Positions 2,435-47,862 of a stretch of 64,000 nt of DNA are shown here, one piece after another. Position numbers and translations under genes: made by a program. The stretch comes from Gemmatimonadaceae bacterium (lineage in GTDB: Bacteria > Gemmatimonadota > Gemmatimonadetes > Gemmatimonadales > Gemmatimonadaceae): contig JACVCD010000006.1 in NCBI GenBank assembly GCA_016742275.1, positions 124,001 through 188,000 on the forward strand, in the 5' to 3' direction. The notes under the pieces were generated by a model. That model had not been told where the DNA came from. It was given only the letters and a program-made list of their open reading frames with translations, and made no database searches. Position 1 is the first letter of the stretch. Every line of letters begins with the position of its first letter.

Positions 2435-3546
2435 CGGGTTGACACCAGACGCTCCAGCTGCACCGTGCGTCCATAGTTGAAGTAGGCCGCACATGCGCCT
2501 TCGGTGGACACCATGGTGGCACCAAGTGGTGTGCGTGGTGTGCACTGCGCACCAAAGGCCGAACACGACGTGGGCTTGATCGTGCCTTGCAGCACATCAC
2601 CGCTTCGGCACAGCGGGCTCTCCTGCGTGCGGATACCCGTCACTGAGAATCGCCGGGCCGCATCGTAGTCGCGATATGCGGCGCTCAAGTGCCAGCCGCT
2701 CTCGGGAATGACACCAATGCCACGCCATGCACGATCGCCGGTGGCAAACACTTCTTCGAGCAGCGTCTGCGCCGTGCGATTACCATCGAAGGTCACCACA
2801 CGGGCGTAGGCATTCTCCACGGCGGCTTCACCCCGCTCAAGCTGACGCACGGTGCGCAGAATGCCATCGAGCACATCCAGCGGCTCAAAGCCAGTGATCA
2901 CGATGGGCACACGATGGCGCGTCACCAATGGTGGATACTGCCAGAAGCCCATCACGCTGCACACGTGGCCGGCAGCGAGAAATGCCTGCACTCGATTGGT
3001 GGGCGAGCGCATGATGGCATCAATGGCCGGCGGCACCAGCACATGCGACACCAGCATGGAAAAGTTGCGCAGCCCCTCACGCTTGGCCACGTGCACGGCC
3101 ATGGCATTGGCCGGCGCTGTGGTCTCGAACCCAATCCCAAAGAACACCACTTCGCGATCGGGATGTTGACGCGCGAGGGCCACGGCATCGAGTGGTGAAT
3201 ACACGACACGCACATCACCGCCTTCGCTCTTCACCCGGAAGAGGTCCTTCTCCGACCCCGGCACGCGCAGCATGTCGCCGAACGAGCAGAAGATCACACC
3301 GGGCTGCGCGGCAATGGCGAGTGCCTGATCGATCACTTCCAGTGGAGTCACGCACACGGGACATCCGGGCCCGTGAATGAGCTCGATTTCCGGTGGGAGC
3401 AACTGGTCGATGCCATTCCGCATGATGCTGTGCGTCTGACCACCACACACTTCCATGATCGCCCACGGACGCGTGGTCAGCTGACGAATTTCCGCCGCCA
3501 TGCGCTGCGCGACTTCGCCATCGCGAAACTCGGTGAGGTACTTCAT
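2431..3546 (-). CDS. hypD: Hydrogenase maturation factor HypD (Fe-S scaffold)
   Basis: 371 aa, full length. HypD with HypC holds the Fe(CN)2CO unit while it is assembled. Visible hallmarks are EVCGGQTH (Cys34) and [10 protein letters not shown] (Cys62, Cys65), the catalytic thiol motifs. A C-terminal set of four cysteines (313, 328, 335, 352) fits the [4Fe-4S] site. The start overlaps the end of hypC by four bases, and the stop overlaps hypE likewise, giving a coupled hypC-hypD-hypE block. Confidence 0.97.
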
Positions 3547-3862: not shown

Positions 3863-5044
3863 TCAGATCCCCTCGGAAAAGGCAGGAGCTACAGTTGGAC
3901 CGGACCAGAGCATGACGCGATTGTTTCCGCTGTCGGCAATCGCGAGACGATCGCCATGGCTCCAGAGTCCGTACGGCCAGCACAGTGAATCGTCGACCAC
4001 GGCCTTCCAGCGATTCTCACCGGAGGCATTGAAGTCGGGTTGACCCAGCACGGCGTGTGCTTCCTGCTGAGCGCCATGTCGTGGGGGGTGATGCCAGTGC
4101 AGCACTCGGTTGTTGGCGGTATCGGCCACCAATAGGCCATGCGCACTCATGGCCGCGGCATAGGGGAAGCGCAGGCGATGCGCACCCTGCGGACGATGCG
4201 GCAGTTCTTCGGCGTGCACGAAGTCCCGCTGTCCGATCACGACATCGGCCGCGCGATCCTCCTCAGGAAGCGGCGTCCAGCCGAGAATGCGATGATTGCC
4301 GGCATCGGCAACGTAGAGTGTGTCCGCATCGCCGGTGATGGCATGCGGCCAGCGAAACGAACTGGCTGATACCGGACCGCCGCGATTTTCGAGTGCGGAG
4401 TTGGCGTCGTCTTGTCCAAGTACGACATGCGCGTGTTCGCCGGGCTCGGGCACATGCGGCCAGCCGAGCACACGCCGGTTGCCCGTGTCGGCAATCCAGA
4501 ACCATCCACCGACTACACCAAGACCGTACGGCCAGTAGAGCGTGTTGCCCTGCACACCGCCGCCGGCATTGGGATGCGCGTCGGCGAGCACGGGCTGCCC
4601 AATCGCATACGACGGTGGCGTGTCGTTCGATGTTGGCAGTGTGTTCCACACCAGTACGCGATGATGCCACGCATCGGCCACGAAGAGACGCCCTTCATGC
4701 AGCAGTACACCGGTTGGCAGGTGCAGACCATTCTCGCAGCCACGTCCACCTGCCGCCGGACCTTCACTCGTGAAATCGCGTTGCCCAAGCACGACATCAG
4801 CCTCGGCGCCGTCACGCTCTGGCCACCGGTGCCATATGAGGATGCGATGATTGCCCGAGTCGGCGACGATCACGCGCTGATCATCGAGCCATACCCCACG
4901 CGGCGCGTAGAACTGACCGCCAGTTGGCTGCGCAGATGGCAGTGCCAGACCAAATGGGGATGCAGCTCCGAGCCGTCGCAGCGGACGTGCGCCACTGGCG
5001 ATATCAGACACAACATCCGCTGGCGACGGGAGTACGGCAGTCAT
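3863..5044 (-). CDS. NHL-repeat beta-propeller protein of the hydrogenase cluster
   Basis: 393 aa. Repeated blocks are visible: RVIVADSGNHRILIW, RLFVADAWHHRVLVW, TLYVADAGNHRILGW, GLLVADTANNRVLHW and RLAIADSGNNRVMLW. Each has the ADxxNxR core of NHL repeats, and AVLGQ/VIGQRDF linkers lie between them. Five to six repeats suggest a closed propeller. No signal peptide is evident, so it is probably cytoplasmic. Its function is unknown. NHL proteins have been noted in actinobacterial-type (group 1h) hydrogenase clusters, which fits its place between the NifU/Rieske gene (4-base overlap) and hypC. A scaffold or interaction role is inference. Confidence 0.88.
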   Translation of the reverse strand: MTAVLPSPADVVSDIASGARPLRRLGAASPFGLALPSAQPTGGQFYAPRGVWLDDQRVIVADSGNHRILIWHRWPERDGAEADVVLGQRDFTSEGPAAGGRGCENGLHLPTGVLLHEGRLFVADAWHHRVLVWNTLPTSNDTPPSYAIGQPVLADAHPNAGGGVQGNTLYWPYGLGVVGGWFWIADTGNRRVLGWPHVPEPGEHAHVVLGQDDANSALENRGGPVSASSFRWPHAITGDADTLYVADAGNHRILGWTPLPEEDRAADVVIGQRDFVHAEELPHRPQGAHRLRFPYAAAMSAHGLLVADTANNRVLHWHHPPRHGAQQEAHAVLGQPDFNASGENRWKAVVDDSLCWPYGLWSHGDRLAIADSGNNRVMLWSGPTVAPAFSEGI

Positions 5045-5937
5045 TGCGCTGGACGCAACTGGATGCGGCCGTTGGTCACGCGGGCCGGTACACCTTCAAG
5101 CTGCGCCTGCGGCGCGGTGAGGCATTCACCCGATGTACAGTCGTAGCGGAAGCCGTGCCATGGACAGGTGATGGTGCGTGACTCGATATCGACCATGCCC
5201 CCGTCGAGCGGCAGCCCCATGTGTGCACAGGCATTCCACCACGCACTGATACTGTCGCCGAAACGCAGAATCACGATGCTGCGGTCCTCACTCACCTCGA
5301 AACGATACGGACGCGCGTCCTGCACATCATCGAGGGCGGGGCCATCGATCCAACCGTCGCCACGAGGTGCACGTGAGAGCGACACCAGAGCCGGCGTGTT
5401 GTCCGGCTCGTTTGGCACCACCTCGATGCGCGTGATTTCGGGGACCTGCTCCTTGAGCGCTTCTTCGATGCCGTTGCGCAGCGTGACTGACGACATGCTG
5501 CAACCATTGCACGCACCGGCGAGGCGCACGAACACGGTATCCGCAGTGACGTCCACCAGCGTCACGTCACCACCGTGAGACTGGGTGTACGGCCGCAGAT
5601 TCTCCACCACCTTGGCCACTCGTGTCCGCACATCGACTTTCACGATCCCATGCAGCGCGAACAGCGCGTACACCCCCGGATCATCGACCAGCGAGAACAA
5701 CAACTCTTTGCCGTGTGGATCCTGTTTCAGCGCGCGGACAATGGTGGTCAGTCCGGCCTTGTGAAACGCTTCCAGTGCGTCCTTGAGCGCCAGTGCACGC
5801 GTACGCTGATCGATGGGCATGCCGCGCACGTCATCGAGTGTGCGTTGCACGTTGGCGGCCAGCGTCTCAAGCGACGGTGCGGTATCGGCAGGCGCCGCCG
5901 TCTCGGGGAGGGGAGCAGTGACAGTCATGACGGTCAT
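5041..5937 (-). CDS. hhyE: NifU-like / Rieske iron-sulfur protein (HhyE-like)
   Basis: 298 aa. The central NifU-type domain carries GACNGCSMSS with Cys143 and Cys146. The C-terminal Rieske domain carries CAH (237-239) and CPWH (258-261), the Cys-x-His / Cys-x-x-His pair that binds [2Fe-2S]. Residues 1-100 are helical without a known motif. The same domain pair is found in HhyE/HucE of mycobacterial uptake hydrogenases, which are needed for H2 oxidation and proposed to carry electrons from the hydrogenase towards quinone. The context here, downstream of hhySL, supports that role. There is no signal peptide. It follows the 128-aa gene by three bases and overlaps the NHL gene by four. Confidence 0.9.
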   Translation of the reverse strand: MTVMTVTAPLPETAAPADTAPSLETLAANVQRTLDDVRGMPIDQRTRALALKDALEAFHKAGLTTIVRALKQDPHGKELLFSLVDDPGVYALFALHGIVKVDVRTRVAKVVENLRPYTQSHGGDVTLVDVTADTVFVRLAGACNGCSMSSVTLRNGIEEALKEQVPEITRIEVVPNEPDNTPALVSLSRAPRGDGWIDGPALDDVQDARPYRFEVSEDRSIVILRFGDSISAWWNACAHMGLPLDGGMVDIESRTITCPWHGFRYDCTSGECLTAPQAQLEGVPARVTNGRIQLRPAQ

Positions 5938-7604: not shown

Positions 7605-7894
7605 GTGGCTGCGTTGAGTGCCACACGCAGTGCACTTTGGCGTTCATCCCAGAAGGCGGGGCAGACACCGGGCACGTAGCGATCATGTAGCGCTTCACGC
7701 ACCAGCACCGAGCGATCGCCGGCAGGATTGCGCTGCTTGAGCAACAATCCACCACCACCGGCGCCACGCGTGGGCAACAGCCAGAGTTCTTCGCCGCGCA
7801 GCATCGCGAGCAGCGTGTCGTTCGGGAAATACGCGTGTGCGACATCAGCACGTAGCACGAGATATCCGGCATCGGTGATTTCGATCTGCGTCAT
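7601..7894 (-). CDS. Small conserved-looking protein of the hydrogenase operon (97 aa)
   Basis: The product has 97 aa and no family I can name with certainty. The middle is Gly-rich and basic (LLPTRGAGGGGLLLKQRN), followed by GDRSVLVREAL and a C-terminal VPGVCPAFWDE with one cysteine. The ATG at 7894 overlaps the maturation-protease stop as ATGA, and the stop overlaps the TPR gene start in the same way. That coupling fixes both ends and argues strongly that it is a real gene. The frame is open upstream but lies inside the protease gene there. A helper role in hydrogenase assembly is inference. Confidence 0.78.
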   Translation of the reverse strand: MTQIEITDAGYLVLRADVAHAYFPNDTLLAMLRGEELWLLPTRGAGGGGLLLKQRNPAGDRSVLVREALHDRYVPGVCPAFWDERQSALRVALNAAT

Positions 7895-8394
7895 GCCGAT
7901 ACCGGTGTCGCAACGTCCGCTGTCGTCGACGCGGTCACGTCTGCCATAATGCGCGTGATCACCGTCTCCATCGCCGCCGCTACGCGCGGCGACAGCGGTT
8001 CGCCCGGTGCAAACTGCTCGGCTTCGATCAGCCACACATCGATGCGCGGCGGATAGTCGTCCTTGAGAATCCAACGGGCAAACGCCAGCGCGTGATCCCA
8101 GCGGAATGCGTGCAAGTTGATGCCAGCAAGTGGCGGTGTTTCCGCGTCGACACCATCGAGACGGAAGATCGCGCCCGGTTCGGAGCCGCTGGTGCAGGCA
8201 TCCACGATGATGACATGAGGCACACCACGCATCTGAAATGCCACGTCCATGCCACCGGTTCCGCCATCGGCACAACGCACGCCGTGCGGCACCCCTCTTT
8301 CCCAGAGGTGCCGCACGAGTACGGGGCCTACCGCATCGTCGCCACGCAGCAGATTGCCGCAGCCGACGATGAGCGCTTGCACCGATTGATTCAT
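7891..8394 (-). CDS. Hydrogenase maturation protease (peptidase family M52)
   Basis: 167 aa, the normal size for HyaD/HoxM-type endopeptidases. The N-terminal LIVGCGNLLRGDDAVGP is the hallmark motif, whose acidic residue contacts the nickel in the large subunit. VIIVDACTSGSEPG gives the second acidic site, and a His-containing stretch (NLHAFRWDHAL) the third ligand. The enzyme removes the C-terminal peptide of the large subunit once nickel is in place. The hhyL product just upstream carries a 19-residue tail after its last active-site histidine, so substrate and protease are adjacent. The start overlaps the hhyL stop by four bases. Confidence 0.92.
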   Translation of the reverse strand: MNQSVQALIVGCGNLLRGDDAVGPVLVRHLWERGVPHGVRCADGGTGGMDVAFQMRGVPHVIIVDACTSGSEPGAIFRLDGVDAETPPLAGINLHAFRWDHALAFARWILKDDYPPRIDVWLIEAEQFAPGEPLSPRVAAAMETVITRIMADVTASTTADVATPVSA

Positions 8395-10016
8395 CCCATC
8401 TCGCCGATGCGGAAGCGGGAGAGTTCTTTCCCGGTCTTCTCGTCGTATGCATGCACGGTGCACACCATGCACGAGTCATACGAGCGAGCGACATGCCCCA
8501 TTTCGATCGGGTCGTTGGGGTTCTGAATCTCGGCGCCGATAAAGGCCTGTTCCATCGGACCATGACGACCCAGTCGGTCTCGCGGACCGATGTTCCACGC
8601 CGTCGGTGTAATGACCTGGTAGTTCTCGATCTTGCCGTCGCTGAGCACGATCCAGTCAGACAGGGAACCACGCGCAGCTTCGGTGGAGCCAAAGCCCTTG
8701 CCCGTCGCATGCTCCACCGGCTTGGTGTAGAAACGGTCGTGCAGGTCGAGTTCATCCAGCCACCGGCGCACGAGGCCTGCATACTTGGGTGCTTCGTGCA
8801 TGCGTGCCATGACACGAACGAAGATGCTGGGGCCGACCGTCTTGATGGCGTCGAGAATGAACGGATCGGACTCCTGGTGTGCGGCGCCACCTTCGCGGCC
8901 AGCCATCACCTGCCGAGCCAGTGGGCCGACTTCAAGCGGAATCGCACCCTTGCCCGGGACATCGTAGCGTGGCGACTTGGACCACGAATACTTGCCCTGC
9001 TTGTGGCCCTCGAGTGGATCGATCGGGTCGGTCTCACCCTGCCACGGATGCAGCGACTTGTCGCCCTTGTAGAACGAATGCGCCGTGTCCTCTCGGACAT
9101 TCAAATGATCGAAATCGTGGAATCCGCTGCCGTCGTAGATGCCCGCACGCGACATGAGTGCATCGTTGCGCCCATCCACGGTGGGATGTTCGTACTTCGA
9201 CGGATCAAAGAACGTACCGGTGGCAAGGTACGCACCCACTCCCTGACCGTACTTGTCGAGACCCGCACGCTGCGCAAACCGGATGAACAGACCGCAGTCG
9301 GAGTTGCGCTGCGATTCATTCTCTTCCGCCCACGCCAGCATGTCGTTCCAGGTCTTGATCTCCATCCAGCGCTCAACCGAGCAACCCAGCCACTGCTTTT
9401 CGAGCCAGTCACGCTTCCACGCGTCGAGAATGGCAATTGAGCGTGTGACATCGCTGAGCGACGGCGCGCACATCACACCACCCGGGATCATGAAGCTCGA
9501 GTGCGGCCACTGCCCGCCAAACATCGCGTAGATCTCGACCGGCTTGGCCGACATCGTCACACCCGGTTCGAAGCTGGTGCCTACGAACGCGGCAAAGCGG
9601 CGCACGACTTCGTCGTATTCGGGGAGATGCTTGTACTTGGGATTGCAGAGGTCCACCGCAAACAACGCGTAGAACCAGCGCGGTATGGAGAGCAGCGTCT
9701 CACACGCCTGCGCAATGTTGCGAATGAGCGTGGCGTTGCGTGGTACGTGTGTCTTCCACGCCGTATCGAGCGCATACGCTGCCTTGTACAAATGGGAACC
9801 ACCACAGATACCGCAGATGCGCGGTGTCACAATGAGACCGGCCTGCGGGTCCTTGCCGCGCAGAATGATCTCGAACCCGCGGAACATGCTCGCTTCGGTC
9901 CACGCGTCGGTGACGACGCCGTCGCGGATCGTCACGCGGAGATCAAGGTCGCCCTCCACGCGCCCGAGGGGGCTGATGCGCAGGTCGGAGGGCATGGGCT
10001 GAGTCGCCGTTGCCAT
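8391..10016 (-). CDS. hhyL: Group 1h [NiFe] hydrogenase large subunit
   Basis: 541 aa. The active-site motifs are RICGICGGSH (Cys68, Cys71) and, near the end, DSCMVCTVH (Cys516, Cys519, His522). The 19 residues after His522 are the expected cleaved tail. The CGICGGSH form and DSC in place of DPC fit the actinobacterial-type high-affinity class, which oxidises H2 at atmospheric levels and tolerates O2. The ATG at 10016 begins MATATQPM; a second Met at residue 8 (MPSDLRISP) is an alternative. No Shine-Dalgarno is seen; the leader is pyrimidine-rich instead. The gene lies 67 bases after hhyS. Confidence 0.96.
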   Translation of the reverse strand: MATATQPMPSDLRISPLGRVEGDLDLRVTIRDGVVTDAWTEASMFRGFEIILRGKDPQAGLIVTPRICGICGGSHLYKAAYALDTAWKTHVPRNATLIRNIAQACETLLSIPRWFYALFAVDLCNPKYKHLPEYDEVVRRFAAFVGTSFEPGVTMSAKPVEIYAMFGGQWPHSSFMIPGGVMCAPSLSDVTRSIAILDAWKRDWLEKQWLGCSVERWMEIKTWNDMLAWAEENESQRNSDCGLFIRFAQRAGLDKYGQGVGAYLATGTFFDPSKYEHPTVDGRNDALMSRAGIYDGSGFHDFDHLNVREDTAHSFYKGDKSLHPWQGETDPIDPLEGHKQGKYSWSKSPRYDVPGKGAIPLEVGPLARQVMAGREGGAAHQESDPFILDAIKTVGPSIFVRVMARMHEAPKYAGLVRRWLDELDLHDRFYTKPVEHATGKGFGSTEAARGSLSDWIVLSDGKIENYQVITPTAWNIGPRDRLGRHGPMEQAFIGAEIQNPNDPIEMGHVARSYDSCMVCTVHAYDEKTGKELSRFRIGEMG

Positions 10017-10083
10017 GGCTGGATTGCTGGGAAGGAGAGAGAAGAAGGAGAATGAACGCAGGCAGGCCGCGTCAGACGACGGA
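10017..10083 (-). other. hhyS-hhyL spacer with pyrimidine-rich hhyL leader
   Basis: The 67 bases between the subunit genes hold a run of about 24 pyrimidines on the coding (minus) strand at about 10026-10050, including two CTCCTT copies. It ends nine bases before the hhyL ATG. No purine-rich Shine-Dalgarno is present. A C/U-rich leader could be read by ribosomal protein S1 or pair with an upstream purine tract, but I cannot tell which. Confidence 0.5.
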
Positions 10084-11055
10084 TCACACGACGAACATGT
10101 CTTCCTTGGTCCACTTGGGCGCTGCAATGCGCGCCGCTGCAGCGTGGGCCATGTACGAAACGTGATCGGTGCCGGTGGGCACTTCCTTCGGAATCGTGCC
10201 ACTCACCTTCTGCGTCTTGAACACCGTGCCCGGCTTGAGGTCATGGAACGGCCATTCGGGTTCGGTGCAGCCGGTGCAGGGCATGCCGGCGCGGGTCTTT
10301 GACGACTGTCGGTTCCACAGAATGCGATTGCACGGTGAGTGCGTCATCGGACCACGGCAGCCGAGTTCGTAGAACAGGCAACCCTGACGCGTGCCCTGGC
10401 CAAACTCCATCGTGCTCTGCTTGTATTCGAAGTACTGCACGCGCGTGCAACCGGTCTGCGTGAACGTCTTGAAGAACGTTTGCGGACGCTGCAGGTCATC
10501 AAGCGCGATATCGCCAGCGCGGCCCGAGGCAATGGCTACGAGGATCTGCGTCACCCAGTCAGGATGCGCTGGGCAGCCGGGAATGTTCACCACCGGAAGT
10601 CCCCACTTCGACTTGTAGTCGGAGCCGAGGAATCCTCCGTGACTGCGCTTCATGTACTGCAGTCCGATGTTGTCGACCGGATTGGGGTCCACCGCCGGCA
10701 GACCGCCCCAGCAAGCACAATCGCCGAGCGCAACCACCGCTCCGGCGTGCGCCGCGAGTTCCTTGACCCAATCCTTCATCGGACGGTCAGCGAACATGTT
10801 GAATCGACCCGTCTTGTTAGGGCCGAGAATGACCGTGCCTTCAAAGACGAACAGATCGAGTTGCCGACGACCGGCGGCGAGGTCGTCCAGCAACTGCCGG
10901 ACGGGCGCGCCCATTTCGATGCCAAGCGAAGGGTGCCAGAGGATGTCGATACCGAAATCCGTGACTAGATCGCACGCACTCGGCTCTTCGGCATTCAGGA
11001 AGGACATCGTGTTCCCGGAACACGCGCCACCCTGCAGCCACAACACCGTTGCCAT
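10084..11055 (-). CDS. hhyS: Group 1h [NiFe] hydrogenase small subunit
   Basis: 323 aa. It starts MATVLWLQGGACSGNTMSF, with no twin-arginine signal, as in other group 1h small subunits, which implies a cytoplasmic enzyme. Fe-S ligands are visible: Cys12, GDCAC (Cys113/115), PGCPAHPDW (Cys161) and a Cys-rich C-terminal third (CRGPMTHSPC, MPCTGCTEPEWPF) for the medial and distal clusters. The usual CxxC of the proximal site is replaced by ACSGN. In the characterised Ralstonia eutropha enzyme of this class one proximal ligand is Asp. A good ribosome-binding site (AGGAG) lies 9 bases upstream. Confidence 0.96.
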   Translation of the reverse strand: MATVLWLQGGACSGNTMSFLNAEEPSACDLVTDFGIDILWHPSLGIEMGAPVRQLLDDLAAGRRQLDLFVFEGTVILGPNKTGRFNMFADRPMKDWVKELAAHAGAVVALGDCACWGGLPAVDPNPVDNIGLQYMKRSHGGFLGSDYKSKWGLPVVNIPGCPAHPDWVTQILVAIASGRAGDIALDDLQRPQTFFKTFTQTGCTRVQYFEYKQSTMEFGQGTRQGCLFYELGCRGPMTHSPCNRILWNRQSSKTRAGMPCTGCTEPEWPFHDLKPGTVFKTQKVSGTIPKEVPTGTDHVSYMAHAAAARIAAPKWTKEDMFVV

Positions 11056-11124
11056 GTGGGAAGTCTCCTGGTGGGGAGGGCCGGACGCACCGGCGAGAGG
11101 AGGGAGGTGAATGCGGACGGCGCC

Positions 11125-11149
11125 GCATCCGAACCGGATGGCAGGATGC
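11125..11149. promoter_or_regulatory. Inverted repeat upstream of hhyS, candidate operator
   Basis: In the 141-base gap between the response-regulator gene and hhyS, gcatcc (11125-11130) pairs with ggatgc (11144-11149). Nested catccg (11126-11131) and cggatg (11135-11140) form a tight palindrome. It lies about 70-95 bases before the hhyS start. The sequence could bind a dimeric regulator, for example the adjacent response regulator, or act as an RNA hairpin. I could not find a convincing -10/-35 pair beside it. Confidence 0.35.
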
Positions 11150-11196
11150 GCCCCAACGAGGCGCGCAACAATAGCAAGAACTTGGTAGGAGACCTG

Positions 11197-11841
11197 CTAC
11201 GCCTGTCCGCCCTGCAGTACGATCAGCCCCTGACTGGCCGCGATACGTACGAGTTCCACCTGATTGTGCGCATCGAGCTTCTGCATGAGGTTGGCCCGAT
11301 GTCGCGTGGCCGTATGCGGCGAGATGTTGAGTGTTTCGGCCACCGCAGATGTGGTCAGTCCATTGGCGATGAGCTGCAACACTTCGCGCTCACGCGCGGT
11401 GAGCGTCGTTGGTCGGATACGCGACTCCTGCAGGCGCACACGATCGATGGCCGCCGCGAGATAGCGCTGCCCTCGAAGGACCGCATCGATGGCGAGGAAC
11501 AGCTCATCGTCCATCGAGTCTTTCAGCAGATAACCATTGGCACCCGACTGTAGTGCCTGACTGACCAGATGTGCTTCGTCATGCATGGACAACACCAACA
11601 CCTTGGTAGACCAGCCGCGAGCGCGCACGCGGCGGAGTGTCTCCAGCCCATCGATGCCGGGCATATTGAGATCCAGCACGATCAGATCTGGACGGTCCTG
11701 CTCGATCAATTCGAGTGCGGCTTCACCGGATGGGGTTTCACCAACCACGTCATACCGACCATCGAGACGCAACAGCACGGCCAGTCCACGGCGCACGAGT
11801 GCATGATCATCCACCAGCAGGAGGCGCGCACGGGTCATCAT
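11197..11841 (-). CDS. NarL/FixJ-type response regulator of the hydrogenase operon
   Basis: 214 aa. The receiver domain has the acidic pair DD (LLLVDDHALVRRGL), the phospho-accepting Asp in LIVLDLNMPGIDG and the conserved Lys in GYLLKDSMD. The C-terminal LuxR helix-turn-helix is LTAREREVLQLIANGLTTSA, followed by ISPHTATRHRANLM. The start overlaps the histidine-kinase stop as ATGA, so the two are a cognate pair. It sits directly upstream of hhyS and is the obvious candidate regulator of the hydrogenase genes. That target is inferred. Confidence 0.93.
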   Translation of the reverse strand: MMTRARLLLVDDHALVRRGLAVLLRLDGRYDVVGETPSGEAALELIEQDRPDLIVLDLNMPGIDGLETLRRVRARGWSTKVLVLSMHDEAHLVSQALQSGANGYLLKDSMDDELFLAIDAVLRGQRYLAAAIDRVRLQESRIRPTTLTAREREVLQLIANGLTTSAVAETLNISPHTATRHRANLMQKLDAHNQVELVRIAASQGLIVLQGGQA

Positions 11842-13541
11842 CGACAGGGCAATTGCACACGGACCTGTGTGCCCGCACCTGGTTGACTGATCAGCTCCAA
11901 CTGTCCATTGAGCTGGTGCACCCGTTCGGCAATTCCACGCAGGCCGAGCCCCTGCGACTGCGCCTGCACATCGAAGCCACGTCCGTCATCCAGCACTGCC
12001 ACCTGCAGGAACCCATTGCTCTGCATGACGTGCACCTGCACTTCCGTTGCCCCCGCATGCGTGGAGACGTTGGTGAGTGCTTCCTGCACGATACGGAACA
12101 CCGCCGTTTCGTGGGCCGGGAATCGACGATCATCGAACCCCTCGATTTCGAGTTGTACAGCGAAACCGCTGCGCTGTTCGGTGTCATGCACCAACTGCGC
12201 GAGAGCCGTGCCGAGCCCATGCTGATCGAGCGCCGGTGGACGCAAACGCCGCGCGAGCTGGCGGAATCGTGCCGTGGCCTGATTGACCTGCACACGCAGC
12301 TCGTCGAGCGGAGCACGCATCGCAGGCGCATCGTCCGGCATGACGCGCGACAGCACTTGCAGCGCGAGTTTGACACCAACCAGGGCCTGACCCGCTTCGT
12401 CGTGCAATTCGCGTGCAATATGCTGACGCTCTTCCTCGATACGTTCAGCATGTTGTGCGAACAACCGTCGCACTTCGGCATTTTTGGCGGCGAGCGCACT
12501 CACCAGTCGTGAATTCTCGATGGCCATAGCCGTAGTGTCGGCCAGCGCTTCGAGAAAGGCCGCGTCATTCCAGGTGAACGCCGCTCGATCCACGCCGCGG
12601 TGCAACTCGAGAAAGCCTACCACCTGATGCGATGTGTCGCGCAGGGGGACGCAGACCACGTGCTGCACACTCTCCTGCTCGACCAAATTGCCGTCTCGTG
12701 CCAGGTCATGCGGATAGTCGGCCGTGAGATACGCGAACTCGTGGTCGAGCACTCGTCCGGGAATGCCTTCGCCACGAGCCCAGCGCATGACATGCCGCCG
12801 CCACTGACCGCTTCGCCAATAGGCATCGGATTCGAGGACTACGTCTCCGGTTTCCGATGCCGATGACAGCCCACCACGACCACCATCGGCTTTCAAAAAT
12901 TGCGCCGCATGCTCCACCATCTCGTGTATCAACGCCACTGGCTCCCGGTGCCGATGCACGGCACCGGAGAACGCAAGCAATGCTTCCATGCCATTCGACC
13001 ACTCGGCCAACCGCGCCAGCAGATCCGAACGATCGAGCGCAACCGAAAGGTGATTGGCGACCACGTCGAGCATTTGCAGCGCACGTTCGCTGCACGTGAT
13101 GTGAGCTGGTCCTGCAATGCAAAGCACCGCTACCGGATGTCCTGCGTGGTGCAGAACGGGCAGGGCAACGAGACTTTCCCACCCGAACGACTCGGGGGTG
13201 ATACGGGTGCCGGCCACCGGTTCGTCTGCTGTGCGCGACACGTGTCGCGCACGCCGGGCCGTCACCACGCGCATGATGTTGCGAAGCGCGGGTTGGATAT
13301 CGAATCCGCCATCCGATCCGGCTACCGAGACGGCTTGCACATCACCCTCGTGCACCGTGCCCAGTGCCACGAATGGCAGCGCCAGATGCAGTGCCATGGT
13401 TCGGCACAGTGTGGCGCGCATTGTGGCCCCATCGGGTTCGCGCGCCAGTGCGTCCGACACGGCGGCAAGCAAGTCAAGCTCGCCGGACGTGGGCGTACGG
13501 TGCGTCGATGCTTCAAACACGAGTCGGGGAACTACGGACAC
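11838..13541 (-). CDS. Soluble GAF-domain sensor histidine kinase (HisKA_3 type)
   Basis: About 567 aa from the chosen GTG. Two GAF-like domains (about 15-180 and 195-345) precede a DHp helix with ERQHIARELHDEAGQALVG (phosphorylated His in the ELHDE motif) and an HATPase_c domain with EALTNVSTHAGA and DDGRGFD. There is no transmembrane segment, so it senses a cytoplasmic cue, perhaps redox state, a small molecule or energy status. The start is uncertain: GTG at 13541 lies 19 bases after the hypB stop, GTG at 13523 is an alternative, and no Met is available between hypB and the domains. It is coupled to the response regulator gene by a 4-base overlap. Confidence 0.88.
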   Translation of the reverse strand: MSVVPRLVFEASTHRTPTSGELDLLAAVSDALAREPDGATMRATLCRTMALHLALPFVALGTVHEGDVQAVSVAGSDGGFDIQPALRNIMRVVTARRARHVSRTADEPVAGTRITPESFGWESLVALPVLHHAGHPVAVLCIAGPAHITCSERALQMLDVVANHLSVALDRSDLLARLAEWSNGMEALLAFSGAVHRHREPVALIHEMVEHAAQFLKADGGRGGLSSASETGDVVLESDAYWRSGQWRRHVMRWARGEGIPGRVLDHEFAYLTADYPHDLARDGNLVEQESVQHVVCVPLRDTSHQVVGFLELHRGVDRAAFTWNDAAFLEALADTTAMAIENSRLVSALAAKNAEVRRLFAQHAERIEEERQHIARELHDEAGQALVGVKLALQVLSRVMPDDAPAMRAPLDELRVQVNQATARFRQLARRLRPPALDQHGLGTALAQLVHDTEQRSGFAVQLEIEGFDDRRFPAHETAVFRIVQEALTNVSTHAGATEVQVHVMQSNGFLQVAVLDDGRGFDVQAQSQGLGLRGIAERVHQLNGQLELISQPGAGTQVRVQLPCR

Positions 13542-13560: not shown

Positions 13561-14262
13561 TCAGGCTGTGGACGGCAGCGCGCGGTGCCAGCGATCACGC
13601 GCTGCATCGAGCGTGGCCAACCACTCGTCGAGCCCCTGACTTGTGCGCGTGGAGCATGCAAGCACCGGCATGCCTGGTCGCACCGACGCGATGGACGACT
13701 CCGCGGCCGCCCGATCAAATTCACACGGAATGGCGAGATCGTACTTGGTGATCATGGCCAGGTCCGCCGAATTGAACATGGTCGGATACTTGAGCGGTTT
13801 GTCTTCGCCTTCGGTCACTGACAGCAGCACAAGACGCAACGCTTCGCCAAGATCGTACGATGCCGGACACACCAGATTGCCCACGTTCTCGACGAATAAC
13901 ACATCAAGTGATGCGAGATCCCACCCCTCGAGATGCTGCTCGATCATCTCGGCTTCGAGATGACAACGCCCATGGGTGTTGATCTGCCGGACGGGTGCAC
14001 CACTGCGAGCAAGACGCTGCGCATCGTTGTCCGTTGCCAGATCACCCACCAGCGCGGCTACACGCACACCACGCGAGTGCAGCGCTGTCAGTGTCCACTC
14101 GAGGAAGGCGGTTTTTCCGGTGCCGGGGCTCGAGACCAGATTCACGACAAATACGCCGGCGTCGACGAATCGGCTGCGCAGACCTCGCGCCAGCTCATCG
14201 TTCTTGCGCAGAATGCCGGCGCGCACTTCGACGATGCGCGTGGTGGGAGCGGTCGTGGTCAC
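13561..14262 (-). CDS. hypB: Hydrogenase nickel-incorporation GTPase HypB
   Basis: 233 aa. Walker A SSPGTGKT lies at 44-51. Switch and metal residues include [13 protein letters not shown] and [12 protein letters not shown] (the Cys-His pair at the dimer nickel/zinc site), and [17 protein letters not shown] is the conserved G3-like stretch. HypB with HypA inserts nickel into the large subunit using GTP. The N-terminus has neither the histidine-rich nickel store nor the CxxCGC motif found in some HypB proteins. Start and stop are clear, with a 4-base overlap with hypA. Confidence 0.96.
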
Positions 14263-14669
14263 GACAGTGGATCCGTGGAAGACACAAAGAATGAAGAGCC
14301 CAGTGACGGTGCGACGTCATCAGGTTCGTCCAACTCGAGGCGCGTGAGATCGAGCTCGCGACCACGCCGGATATCGGCGCTGGGTGTATCACACACCGGA
14401 CAGCGGAATCGGTTCACGCCTGGCAACTCGCGCACCGTGTCGCATGGTGCGCATTGGATGGCGATGGGTACATCCTCGATCACCAGTCGCGAGCCCGCGA
14501 GCAGCGTGCCATCGGTGACGAGGTCGTAGGAGAACTCGAGGGCGCCGGCTTCCACACCGCTCAGACGTCCTACCGCAAGGTACACCGCGTGCACGTGTGT
14601 CGCTCCGAGGCGCGTGGCTTCCGCCGTGGCGATTTCCACGAGACCCTGAGCGATCGACAGTTCGTGCAT
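14259..14669 (-). CDS. hypA: Hydrogenase nickel-insertion protein HypA
   Basis: 136 aa. The [12 protein letters not shown] start provides the N-terminal amine/His2 nickel site. The zinc site is two CxxC pairs (Cys73/76 and Cys90/93). About 40 residues follow the second pair, making the protein longer than the usual ~115 aa; the tail ends in low-complexity Ser/Phe and overlaps hypB by four bases. HypA delivers nickel with HypB. It follows the DUF1641-like gene after 29 bases. Confidence 0.95.
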
Positions 14670-14698: not shown

Positions 14699-15487
14699 TC
14701 AGCGCGCGAGCGACTGACCGTACGACTTGGAGAATCGCACGGCGAACTGCACAACGCGCGCGATATCCGGGTCGCGCAGCGCCTTGAGCATCGCCAGCAC
14801 ACCCATGGGTTTTTCATCTGATGCTGCCGCGTGGGCTTCATCATACGATGCTGCCGCTGAACGCCCCATGGTAGCCAGCACCTCCACCGTGCGTGGTTCC
14901 AGCATGCCGGATTTGACCAGCGTCTGACCCGCTGCGACAAGCGGAGGCAACGCGGCCAGCACGTCCTTGAGCTTCACGAAGTCTGTTTGCGACGCACGCT
15001 TCAGTTCTTCCACGTCATCGGCCAGCGCCGTCGCGATCGTGTCGCCGCGGCGCAGGAATCCATCGATGGCTTCGAGTGTGAACGCGGCGAGTTCGAGTCG
15101 GTCGAGCACCGCTTTCACGGCGTCGATCGTCTTCTCCTCTCCCAATCGTTCGATCAATCCCGAATCAATCAGTCGCTGAAACGCCGGCGTTGCTGACACA
15201 TCGGCCAACTGCACGCCAACACGCGCCAACTGCGGAATACGACCGATCACATCACCGGTGGCGGTTTCTTCGCCGGTGAGTTTCTTGAAATCCGACACGC
15301 TCTCCGCCACACTCTCGGCGACGACGTTTGCACGCGCAAGAAATCCGTCCAGGGCATCGGCGACAAACGCGATGACCTCGAGCCGGTCCAGCAGGCGATT
15401 GAGTGAATCGATGGTTTTCTCTTCCGACAGGCGGGCCAGCAGCTGCTCGTGGGCAGCACTGGATGCGGAAGGCAACGCGGTCCCCAT
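14699..15487 (-). CDS. DUF1641-like protein, first gene of the hydrogenase operon
   Basis: 262 aa. Two tandem copies of an ~85-residue unit are visible: RLSEEKTIDSLNRLLDRLEV...DALDGFLAR and RLGEEKTIDAVKAVLDRLEL...EAIDGFLRR. A C-terminal third with KPMGVLAMLKALRDPDIAR follows, a form I associate with DUF1641. DUF1641 proteins occur next to membrane-linked oxidoreductases (for example B. subtilis YrhD beside YrhE), but their role is unknown. Helices are amphipathic with no clear membrane span. The start at 15487 is set by GGAGG six bases upstream; an earlier in-frame Met at 15523 lacks such a site. Being first, it may help join the hydrogenase to the membrane, which is speculation. Confidence 0.82.
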   Translation of the reverse strand: MGTALPSASSAAHEQLLARLSEEKTIDSLNRLLDRLEVIAFVADALDGFLARANVVAESVAESVSDFKKLTGEETATGDVIGRIPQLARVGVQLADVSATPAFQRLIDSGLIERLGEEKTIDAVKAVLDRLELAAFTLEAIDGFLRRGDTIATALADDVEELKRASQTDFVKLKDVLAALPPLVAAGQTLVKSGMLEPRTVEVLATMGRSAAASYDEAHAAASDEKPMGVLAMLKALRDPDIARVVQFAVRFSKSYGQSLAR

Positions 15488-15603
15488 GGAGGTCCTCCAG
15501 GGATCGGGGTGAGATTCGGGCAACTTTACGCGCTCACACCCCCGCCCGTCATGGCAAGATCATGCTATTTCCACCCTGAACCTCCGTTGACGACGTTCCG
15601 GGT
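15488..15603. promoter_or_regulatory. Divergent promoter region, hydrogenase operon versus hypF
   Basis: This 116-base gap separates the two divergent transcription units. On the minus strand ATGACG (15547-15552), an 18-base spacer and TAAAGT (15523-15528) form a weak -35/-10 candidate, giving a short leader of about 30 bases before the 15487 start. No equally good pair is seen for hypF. The motif assignment is tentative; that promoters lie here follows from the divergent layout. Confidence 0.4.
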
Positions 15604-18081
15604 GTGTCATTCCCCTCCGTCAGCGCCCCCGCGGTCACCACCACCACGCGGCGCCGTATCGCCATTCGACTTGACGGCATCGTACAAGGTGTCGGCTTTC
15701 GGCCATATGTCCATCGGCTCGCAGTTTCCGAGTCGTTGTCAGGCTCTGTCTGCAATGCTGGTTCGGAGGTTCTTGTTGATGTCGAGGGGGAGTCGTCGGC
15801 GGTTGATCGATTTTTGCAGCGACTTCCCATCGAATTGCCCGGAGCCGCACGCATCGATCACTGCCATGTCATCGATGCGTTGCTGAGTGGGCAGACGGGC
15901 TTTTCGATCGCACCAAGTCGTGCCGCTGCGACACATGTCGCGCGTGCTGCAGATGTCGCAGGCGAGAGCTGCGCCGGAGGGCGCGACGCATCGAGCGACG
16001 CATGGCGTGATTTAGAACCTGCCGTCATGCCGATTGCACCGGATCTGGCCACGTGTGACGATTGTTGGTCAGAGTTTCATGATCCGGCCAATCGTCGCTA
16101 TCACTATCCGTTCCTCAACTGCACACAGTGCGGTCCGCGTTACACGATCGTCACTGGTGTGCCATACGATCGGGCGCGTACGACCATGGCACGATTTGCC
16201 ATGTGCGTGGAGTGCCAGCGCGAATACGACAATCCGGCGGACCGGCGATTCCACGCCGAACCGACCGCATGTCGCACCTGCGGGCCGCAGCTCATCTGGC
16301 GTGCAACACCGAAAGAGGTATCGGCAGAGAGTTCACAGCTCGCCGAGTGCGCGCTGCATGCTGCGCACGCGGTCTTGCAAGTGGGTGGCGTGATTGCCGC
16401 CAAAGGCCTCGGCGGATATCACCTGTTGTGTCGCGCGGACAACCATGACGCGGTAGCCCGGTTGCGTCGCGACAAGGCGCGCCCCGACAAGCCGCTGGCC
16501 ATTCTGGCGGCAACACTCGATGACGCGCGGCGAATGGCGGAGGTGAGCGACGCGGCTGCCCGTGCGCTGACGTCGCCGGCTCATCCCATCGTCCTGCTGC
16601 CGCGCAGAGAGCATGGCGTGCTCGCGGACAACATTGCACCGGGTCTCGACGAAATCGGCATCATGTTGCCGGCCTTGCCGCTGCATGCGCTTCTGGCCAC
16701 GATGGGTCCCCTGGTCTGCACCAGCGGCAATCTGTCAGAAGAGCCCATTGCGTGGCGCGACATCGATGCTCTCGGTCGCCTGTCCAATCTGGTTGATGGT
16801 GTTCTGACACACGAGCGCGACATCGTCCTGCCCTGCGACGATTCGGTGGTGCGGGTTGATCACGCAGGCCACGTGACTCCACTACGTCGCGCTCGCGGAT
16901 ACGCGCCCCTGGCGATCAAGGCCGGAAGTGTCGGCACACGTGGCGTGGTGCTCGCTGTTGGTGCCGAACTCAAGTCCGCCCCCGCGCTGCTGTGGCGCGA
17001 TCAGGTCGTGCTGGCGCCGCACCTTGGTGATGTCGCCAGCCCTGACACACTCGATGCGCTCACGCACGCGACCGAGCGACTGGAGACGTCGTACGGTGCG
17101 TCGCCGGATGTCATCGCCTGTGATCTGCATCCGGACTATCTCTCGTCGCGATGGGCGGTCACGCGTGCGGCAAAAACTGGGCGGCCGGTGGTACGCGTGC
17201 AACATCACCATGCTCACCTCGCCGCCTTGCATGCTGAAGGCGTGGCACGTCGACAGATCGCTTCCGATGACACGCTGACCGCCTTCACGTTCGATGGTAC
17301 TGGATACGGTCCCGATGGTACGATCTGGGGCGGTGAGGTATTGCGCGGTAACGCGGCGCGCTTCGAGCGCCTCGCATCACTGCGCCCATTTCTCCTTCCC
17401 GGTGGTGATGCGGCGGTCAGGCAGCCATGGCGCTCGGCGCTCGGTGTATTGACCGCCAGTGATTGCGTCGATGCGGCGTCGATGCTGTTTGCCACGCAGC
17501 TTCCTCACGAGACACTCGCGATCGTTCGACATCAACTCGATCGACAGTTGGCCTGCGCCAGCACCACAAGCATGGGACGCTGGTTCGACGCGTGCGCGGC
17601 GCTGTGTGGTATTGCGTTGCATGTCACCTACGAAGGCCAGGCGGCCATGCACCTCGAAGCACTGGCTGCGCGATGCGCGGTGCCACACAAGGCGCCGCGA
17701 TATCGCTTTCACATCACGCACACACGATTCGACTTTGCTCCAGTCGTGCACGCACTGCTCGATGATGTCGCGCATCTGCGCTCTCGCGGCGAGGCATGGG
17801 GCTCCAACGCGTTTGCTGCTCTGGCCTACGCCGTCCATGACGCCGTCGCGCACGCGATGCGTGCGCTCGCCGCAGAGCATGCGCCGGGTGCATCCATCGG
17901 ACTGACCGGTGGCGTCTTTCAGAATCGTTTGCTCACGCGCCTTGCGGCGCAGCAGATGGAATCCGCCGGTCATGCGGTGCTCACGCATCGTCTCGTGCCG
18001 TGCAACGATGGTGGACTCGCGCTCGGACAGGCGCTGATCGCATCGCATGCCCACTCTGCTCGTCACGTCATTCCGACATGA
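15604..18081 (+). CDS. hypF: Carbamoyltransferase HypF
   Basis: 825 aa. Domains in order: acylphosphatase-like (GIVQGVGFRPYVHRL, residues 25-39); a 35-residue linker; two C4 zinc fingers (Cys151/154/173/176 and Cys201/204/223/226); a YrdC-like domain (KGLGGYHLLC, RRDKARPDKPLAIL, TSGNLSEEPI); and a Kae1-like carbamoyltransferase domain with VQHHHAHLAAL near 535 and GLTGGVFQN near the end. HypF makes carbamoyl-adenylate and loads HypE for CN synthesis. The start is GTG at 15604; no other start lies before the first domain. It is transcribed away from the main hydrogenase operon and followed after 19 bases by a nickel permease. Confidence 0.96.
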   Translation: MSFPSVSAPAVTTTTRRRIAIRLDGIVQGVGFRPYVHRLAVSESLSGSVCNAGSEVLVDVEGESSAVDRFLQRLPIELPGAARIDHCHVIDALLSGQTGFSIAPSRAAATHVARAADVAGESCAGGRDASSDAWRDLEPAVMPIAPDLATCDDCWSEFHDPANRRYHYPFLNCTQCGPRYTIVTGVPYDRARTTMARFAMCVECQREYDNPADRRFHAEPTACRTCGPQLIWRATPKEVSAESSQLAECALHAAHAVLQVGGVIAAKGLGGYHLLCRADNHDAVARLRRDKARPDKPLAILAATLDDARRMAEVSDAAARALTSPAHPIVLLPRREHGVLADNIAPGLDEIGIMLPALPLHALLATMGPLVCTSGNLSEEPIAWRDIDALGRLSNLVDGVLTHERDIVLPCDDSVVRVDHAGHVTPLRRARGYAPLAIKAGSVGTRGVVLAVGAELKSAPALLWRDQVVLAPHLGDVASPDTLDALTHATERLETSYGASPDVIACDLHPDYLSSRWAVTRAAKTGRPVVRVQHHHAHLAALHAEGVARRQIASDDTLTAFTFDGTGYGPDGTIWGGEVLRGNAARFERLASLRPFLLPGGDAAVRQPWRSALGVLTASDCVDAASMLFATQLPHETLAIVRHQLDRQLACASTTSMGRWFDACAALCGIALHVTYEGQAAMHLEALAARCAVPHKAPRYRFHITHTRFDFAPVVHALLDDVAHLRSRGEAWGSNAFAALAYAVHDAVAHAMRALAAEHAPGASIGLTGGVFQNRLLTRLAAQQMESAGHAVLTHRLVPCNDGGLALGQALIASHAHSARHVIPT

Positions 18082-47166: not shown

Positions 47167-47862
47167 ATGCGCCCCGACCTCATTCGTGTCGTGCTGATCG
47201 ACGACCACCAGATCGTGCGTGCCGGCCTCAAGGCTGTGCTGGCCACAGCCAAGGACATCACCGTTGTTGGTGAAGGCGGCAATGGCAAGGAAGCGTTGGT
47301 GCTCGCTGAACGGCTCAATCCGCATGTCATTGTGATGGATCTCTCCATGCCCGACATGGATGGACTCACGGCCACGCGGGAGCTGCAGAAGGCGAACGCT
47401 GCGCGCACGGTGGCGCCGGATGATGAGGTCACGCGTCGTGTACTGGTGCTCACGATGCACACCGAAGACGAACATCTTGTGGCGCTGCTCGAGGCTGGCG
47501 CGGGTGGTTATCTGCTCAAGTCGGTCGCCGACCGTGAGCTGGTTGATGCGGTGCGCACCGTGGCCGCCGGTGATGTGTATGTGCAGCCAACGGCAGCGCG
47601 TGCGCTGGCACGCGGTCTCGCCAAGCGCGATGGCACCGCTGAGGAGCGGACGCGTTTCGAGAAACTCACCGATCGTGAGCAGGTGGTGCTCAAGATGGTG
47701 GCTGAAGGGTACACCGCGCCCGAGATCGGAGAGCATCTCACCATTTCGCCGAAGACTGTCGATACGTACAAACAGCGTATCGGCGAAAAGCTCGGGCTCA
47801 CGCATCGCACCGACTACGTGAAGTTTGCGCTCAAGCTGGGTCTCTTGAAAAACGACAGTTGA
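47167..47862 (+). CDS. NarL/FixJ-type response regulator, orphan
   Basis: 231 aa. The receiver has LIDDHQIVRAGLKAVL, the phospho-Asp in VIVMDLSMPDMDG, Thr in VLTMHTEDEH and Lys in GYLLKSVAD. An insertion of about 12 residues (NAARTVAPDDEV) sits between receiver strands. The LuxR HTH is LTDREQVVLKMVAEGYTAPE then ISPKTVDTYKQRI. No histidine kinase is adjacent. It starts 9 bases after fahA and is followed after one base by a zinc-ribbon gene, so the three may be co-transcribed. Confidence 0.93.
   Translation: MRPDLIRVVLIDDHQIVRAGLKAVLATAKDITVVGEGGNGKEALVLAERLNPHVIVMDLSMPDMDGLTATRELQKANAARTVAPDDEVTRRVLVLTMHTEDEHLVALLEAGAGGYLLKSVADRELVDAVRTVAAGDVYVQPTAARALARGLAKRDGTAEERTRFEKLTDREQVVLKMVAEGYTAPEIGEHLTISPKTVDTYKQRIGEKLGLTHRTDYVKFALKLGLLKNDS

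Follow-up and report, generated by a model that had tools for sequence, protein, structure and literature searches.

A histidine kinase gene and a response regulator gene lie inside the hydrogenase gene cluster of a soil bacterium of the Gemmatimonas group. The locus raises the question of whether this pair controls the hydrogenase and which signal it would read. In a sequence-only reading, the window (the whole 64-kb stretch of DNA that was analysed) had been described as carrying a soluble GAF-GAF kinase and a LuxR-type regulator between hyp and hydrogenase structural genes. Pfam matches, a structural model, hydropathy and gene order all confirmed this description. The pair had been placed between hypB and "hhyS"; the place is correct but the name is not, as the genes called hhyS and hhyL are hucS and hucL of a group 2a enzyme. 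The coordinates are listed in Table 1.

Table 1. Genes and predicted regulatory sites of the huc cluster in the window.
Feature	Position	Strand	Basis or remark
hucL, group 2a hydrogenase large subunit	8391-10034	-	870 bits to M. smegmatis HucL 7uus/7utd, 118 to HofG 5aa5
hucS, group 2a hydrogenase small subunit	10084-11055	-	588 bits to HucS 7uur_D, 93 to HofK 5aa5_A
DUF1641 protein, HucM homologue (membrane-associated Huc subunit)	14699-15487	-	Pfam; 7uus_Q HucM E 2.7e-10; likely ATG start 15487
hypA	14259-14669	-	TIGR00100 above cut-off
hypB	13561-14262	-	TIGR00073 above cut-off
Sensor histidine kinase (soluble)	11838-13541	-	GAF1 ~17-175, GAF2 ~178-345, HisKA_3 (H380), HATPase_c
NarL/LuxR-type response regulator	11197-11841	-	Pfam REC and GerE HTH above curated cut-offs; recognition helix SPHTATRHRANLM
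Hydrogenase maturation protease	7891-8472	-	TIGR00072 above cut-off
NifU-Rieske protein, HucE-like	5041-5937	-	Pfam NifU and Rieske; HucE association in PMC7784904
Homologue of huc-cluster NHL-repeat proteins	3863-5044	-	56% to region annotated NHL repeat protein in locus L024
hypD	about 2470-3513		further along from the huc genes
hypF, divergent from the box 2 operon	15604-18081	+	resembles HypF-annotated genes of plasmid relatives
Huc box 1 (TCCTACCAAGTTCTTGCTATTGT)	11168-11190	-	hucS promoter; 28.7 bits, best match in 64 kb
Huc box 2 (AAATAGCATGATCTTGCCATGAC)	15548-15570	-	hucM-hypA-hypB-kinase-regulator promoter; 25.6-25.8 bits (two strands), second-best place in 64 kb
-10-like hexamer CATCCT	11143-11148	-	32 nt after box 1 dyad centre
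-10 hexamer TAAAGT	15523-15528	-	32 nt after box 2 dyad centre

The group 1h (Hhy) assignment made earlier was rejected by comparison with solved structures: the large and small subunits reach 870 and 588 bits with M. smegmatis Huc but 118 and 93 bits with the actinobacterial-type HofG/HofK enzyme (5aa5). It is also contradicted by published work that places the G. aurantiaca enzyme in group 2a (PMC7784904). The similarity to HucL and HucS extends over the full length of the proteins, and the window enzyme stands with Thermus, Sulfobacillus and mycobacterial HucL in a HucL tree. HucM, a Rieske HucE and an NHL protein are all encoded at the locus; the association of group 2a hydrogenase with Rieske HucE and an NHL protein has been described (PMC7784904). 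A TPR-region protein is also part of the cluster. By sequence comparison, the hydrogenase is group 2a (Huc), an enzyme that lets the bacterium live partly on hydrogen from air. The contrast drawn earlier with starvation-controlled group 1h enzymes falls, because the enzyme is group 2a and hucL of G. aurantiaca peaks during exponential growth, with a 51-fold drop in stationary phase (PMC7784904, Islam et al.). Moreover, there is already a precedent for a GAF-GAF/NarL-type system with a group 1h target: DosST/DosR modulates the Hhy (group 1h) and Hyh hydrogenase genes in M. smegmatis (PMC13098282). Within the HucM homologue a segment is duplicated in tandem (40% identity across 80 residues), one copy sitting ahead of the part matching M. 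smegmatis HucM.

The kinase has 567 aa and a GTG start codon. Its Pfam matches, all above curated cut-offs, are GAF/GAF_2 in two stretches, HisKA_3 (371-438) and HATPase_c (478-565), and it is classified as a HisKA_3 histidine kinase by the conserved histidine in HisKA_3 together with HATPase_c. In the AlphaFold2 model (mean pLDDT 79.8), two GAF folds precede a kinase core that resembles DesK and VraS. No transmembrane segment was found in the kinase, the maximum 19-residue hydropathy being 1.64. H380 is invariant in an alignment with 18 relatives. The regulator is of the NarL/FixJ type, with a REC domain whose phospho-acceptor is D57 and a GerE HTH; the closest solved structure is NarL (1a04, 122 bits). 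Both genes are complete and the catalytic residues H380 and D57 are intact. Such a combination of GAF kinase and NarL-type regulator is an already known type of system. The gene order is hypB-kinase-regulator-hucS, with 19 bases between the end of hypB and the kinase and a 4-base overlap between kinase and regulator. The window encodes one more response regulator of the NarL type at 47182-47847 (+), distant from the hydrogenase cluster and sharing 42% identity with the huc regulator.

Hydrogenase matches were found in 12 of 149 relatives, and 11 of these 12 genomes (window included) carry a close HucL (78-100%). Comparing the same position in relatives, as proposed earlier, refuted a general absence of the pair there: it is present between hypB and hucS in all 10 other family genomes with close HucL as well as in Acidobacteriota and Planctomycetota. 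The twelfth genome, with a HucL of 55% (G055), lacks the pair. Of the 149 relatives, 12 have a regulator orthologue: all 11 genomes with a close HucL, among them that of the window, plus one further genome. By a scan and a gene-order table, the order hypB-kinase-regulator-hucS was also found in the Acidobacteriota groups Holophagales, Bryobacterales and Acidobacteriaceae, and it recurs in the Planctomycetota loci L038 and L041. In the planctomycetes L035 and L039 the entire hucM-hypA-hypB-kinase-regulator block is inverted and directed away from hucS. The pair is absent from the examined huc clusters of Chloroflexus, Caldilineaceae, Thermus, Sulfobacillus, Sphingopyxis, Bacteroidota and actinobacteria. 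Relative G020 encodes a 90% identical HucL at 471 kb and has the pair in its cluster; it very probably represents a cultured species, Gemmatimonas aurantiaca (T-27).

A tree was built from the HucL of 47 loci. All 18 that bear the pair fall into one clade (SH-aLRT 99), and pair presence requires one change on the tree against a mean of 14.5 in shuffles. The pair occurs in 18/18 distinct loci of this clade, which spans Gemmatimonadota, Acidobacteriota and Planctomycetota, and in none of the examined huc clusters outside it. The earlier view of the pair as part of the hydrogenase cluster, and very probably its regulator, is supported. The distances calculated for regulator, kinase, HypB and HucL correlate strongly with one another (r 0.81-0.86). 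Regulators at the same place in the other phyla share 53-66% identity with the Gemmatimonadaceae queries, compared with 43% for the nearest regulator paralogue within its own genome. From the single clade, the correlated distances and these identities, the history would be explained most simply if the pair was gained once and then kept with the cluster, including an apparent transfer between phyla suggested by the grouping of Holophagales HucL with Gemmatimonadota HucL. A Gemmatimonadota genome of another family (G319; L144, 1-9000) has a different huc type (HucL 62-64%) with neither pair nor box; the phylum thus has at least two huc lineages.

The sequence-only reading had named 11056-11196 and 15488-15603 as regions to which the regulator might bind, and conserved dyads, the putative operators, were found exactly there. 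An 18-base dyad (ATAGCATG-TT-CATGCYAT) precedes both hucS and the hucM/hyp/kinase operon. Alignment of intergenic regions gave the consensus rAATAGCAwGTTCwTGCYATtG, with 8-base arms and a 2-base centre. The matrix used to score the two window boxes was built solely from Acidobacteriota and Planctomycetota sites, and the next-best place in the window after the two boxes reached 14.6 bits. In the reverse test, a matrix from Gemmatimonadota alone recovered the Acidobacteriota and Planctomycetota sites. With a combined matrix, trained on most of the loci it scores, at least one box (17-36 bits) was found in 18/18 loci with the pair; with the same matrix no match above 15.0 bits was found in 74 huc loci without the pair. 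The planctomycetes L039 and L041 have a box before hucM alone and none before hucS. The near-invariance of the regulator recognition helix across all orthologues in the alignment is expected if all of them read the same box. A second palindrome (CTACCATGTC-ACG-GACATGGTAG) is present besides the box upstream of hucS in one Gemmatimonadaceae genome (L022, about 10144-10166).

The dyad resembles NarL-type 7-2-7 sites in having two arms of 7-8 bases around a 2-base centre, and the left arm TACCAAG resembles the NarL heptamer TACYNMT. It differs from NarL systems in the arm sequence TAGCATG, and the kinase here is a soluble GAF protein, not a membrane nitrate sensor. No earlier report of the huc pair was found in the text of the literature searched (Fig. 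S4 of PMC7784904 may draw these genes). What is new here is the 18-base dyad as predicted operator for the huc-associated pair. The box enables the recognition of Huc operons under such control in metagenomes. With a regulator and predicted sites in three phyla, including a cultured species, the control of a globally important process can be tested directly and cheaply.

The spacing between dyad and promoter is fixed. A -10-like hexamer (nAnnnT) starts exactly 32 nt past the dyad centre in 28 of 33 promoters, and at any other offset it is found in 0-4 of the 33. If this hexamer corresponds to -12 to -7, the dyad centre would lie near -43.5 and the -35 region would be covered, which is the layout of a class II activator. 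Box 2 was also considered as a promoter element for the divergent hypF and rejected, as no -10 at the same spacing toward hypF was seen by eye. Because the box overlaps the -35 region in both promoters, and NarL-type regulators can repress as well as activate, the regulator might instead be a huc repressor that blocks polymerase at -35 until the signal relieves it. Repressor sites do not need fixed spacing, however, and a dyad near -43 at a strictly fixed distance to a weak -10 is the usual arrangement of class II activation; we regard repression as unlikely.

A second alternative is that the pair is a passenger of the cluster and chiefly controls genes elsewhere, the box being read by another regulator. 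This has some basis in G025 (93% complete, 8 contigs), a relative in which kinase and regulator are intact, with 57% and 68% identity, respectively, across the aligned parts. Beside that pair (L143, 9100-11524) neither huc nor hyp genes were found, and no HucL in the genome; nor was there a box above 15 bits among the pattern matches retrieved. The G025 pair adjoins a 4-alpha-glucanotransferase-like gene and tldD/tldE, two genes that lie next to the window's huc cluster as well. The pair may be a relic that outlived deletion of huc, or it may have a second role or target. A pair kept after the loss of both huc and box is the main point against a dedicated activator. Against the passenger explanation, pair and box occur in one clade and are both missing from other huc clusters, and no equally good boxes were retrieved elsewhere in the window genome or in G020. 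In both genomes the two huc sites outscore the other genome-wide pattern matches retrieved (in the window genome 28.0 and 24.0 bits, the next best retrieved match being 21.2). We therefore consider a passenger role improbable. A wider regulon was also examined and rejected: the loose pattern was no more frequent in the genomes than the same pattern reversed as a control, and of the matches that were scored, the two huc sites alone had high scores.

The pair, its gene order, the box, the promoter geometry and the confinement of both pair and box to one shared HucL clade are all read from sequence, and on this comparative basis the regulatory link from the pair to huc is well supported. Phosphotransfer, binding of the regulator to the box and activation rather than repression are what we infer from it, the position of the box being the single observation that gives the sign. 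The pair is likely to be a two-component activator that is autoregulated and dedicated to the group 2a (Huc) oxidase of atmospheric hydrogen, along with the maturation genes of this enzyme. The tandem GAF domains of the kinase would be altered by a signal from the cytoplasm, and the kinase would autophosphorylate at H380 and pass the phosphate to D57 of the regulator. At each of two promoters, a regulator dimer would then bind the 18-base Huc box, which would lie roughly 43 bases ahead of the start site (predicted at about 11136 and 15516). Box 1 would drive hucS, then hucL and the accessory genes; box 2 would drive hucM-hypA-hypB-kinase-regulator. Since box 2 is upstream of the operon that includes the pair, the pair would control its own synthesis in a feedback loop.

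A cytoplasmic signal fits the soluble kinase. GAF1 is hypervariable between lineages and GAF2 is much better conserved in the orthologue alignment (invariant residues W247, G259, G262, E268, F269 and W324), which makes GAF2 the better candidate for a conserved input. By profile, GAF2 is nearest to GAF domains of cyclic-nucleotide PDEs and of DosT/DosS. The GAF2 model matches many GAF folds about equally (free-methionine-sulfoxide reductases, PtsP, PDE, DosS), and the modelled fold was accordingly rejected as a means of naming the ligand.

The kinase could be a haem sensor of O2, NO or CO of the DosS/DosT type, an alternative that concerns the signal and not the target. It shares with DosS/DosT the layout of two GAF domains, HisKA_3 and a NarL-type partner; GAF2 matches the DosT profile (E 2.6e-7) and that of DosS; the structural match to DosS GAF-A has Z 16.7 (139 aligned, rmsd 2.7, 19% identity); and DosST/DosR acts on hydrogenases in M. 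smegmatis (PMC13098282). The conserved proximal haem histidine of DosS/DosT is missing, however. The stretch aligned to the DosT histidines contains none, no histidine is conserved throughout GAF1 or GAF2, and no fully conserved His or Cys was found in kinase residues 1-350 of 18 orthologues. Haem sensing is thus unsupported and we consider it quite doubtful. Other differences from the mycobacterial system, which has the same soluble two-GAF kinase, HisKA_3 core and NarL-type regulator, are the group 2a target, the location of the genes within the target cluster, and the few dedicated sites predicted here compared with a broad regulon of more than 50 genes there.

Input from an H2-sensing regulatory hydrogenase, on the model of Cupriavidus HoxBC-HoxJ-HoxA, is suggested by the location of the pair with an H2-uptake enzyme and is very improbable, because the Huc enzyme is the single [NiFe] hydrogenase in the whole genome, no second, sensory one was found there, and hucL of G. 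aurantiaca, a species with no other hydrogenase, is unaffected by 10% H2 (PMC7784904). HoxJ-HoxA with its regulatory hydrogenase and RegB-RegA are likewise two-component controls of uptake hydrogenases, but they depend on an additional, sensory hydrogenase or on a redox kinase in the membrane, whereas here the kinase is soluble and there is one hydrogenase.

The reported growth-phase profile of hucL suggests that the dedicated activator system is active during growth. We put forward more tentatively, at somewhat less than an even chance, that the tandem-GAF kinase, the NarL-type regulator and the Huc box form a self-contained module acquired once by one Huc clade and since moved between phyla. 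This module would read a cytosolic metabolite or redox signal via a ligand-binding GAF2, so that atmospheric H2 oxidation follows growth rather than starvation.

The huc clusters of M. smegmatis, Thermus and Chloroflexus share the backbone of DUF1641/hucM, hypAB, hucSL, protease, TPR, NifU-Rieske (HucE) and NHL genes, but they have no pair between hypB and hucS and no box. A different pair was found close upstream in mycobacterial huc clusters (L076, 5127-7033; L099, 6839-8697; L057, 3-2098), within about 2 kb of hucM/hucS in L076, L085 and L099. Here the NarL-type regulator comes first and a HisKA_3-like kinase that has a GAF-like region comes second, so the gene order is opposite; identity is about 34%. 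This pair is a candidate for the missing mycobacterial huc regulator. In a Pyrinomonadaceae huc cluster (L046, 2919-5235), a kinase with a PAS-like sensor and a NarL-type regulator are found upstream of hucM-hypA-hypB, which suggests that huc clusters have gained such pairs on more than one occasion. Other regulators in or near huc clusters belong to the AraC family, the TetR family and sigma-54 activators (L024, 9040-10095; L027, 9111-10795; L028, 7147-8589). Given this variety, control of huc seems to have been swapped repeatedly.
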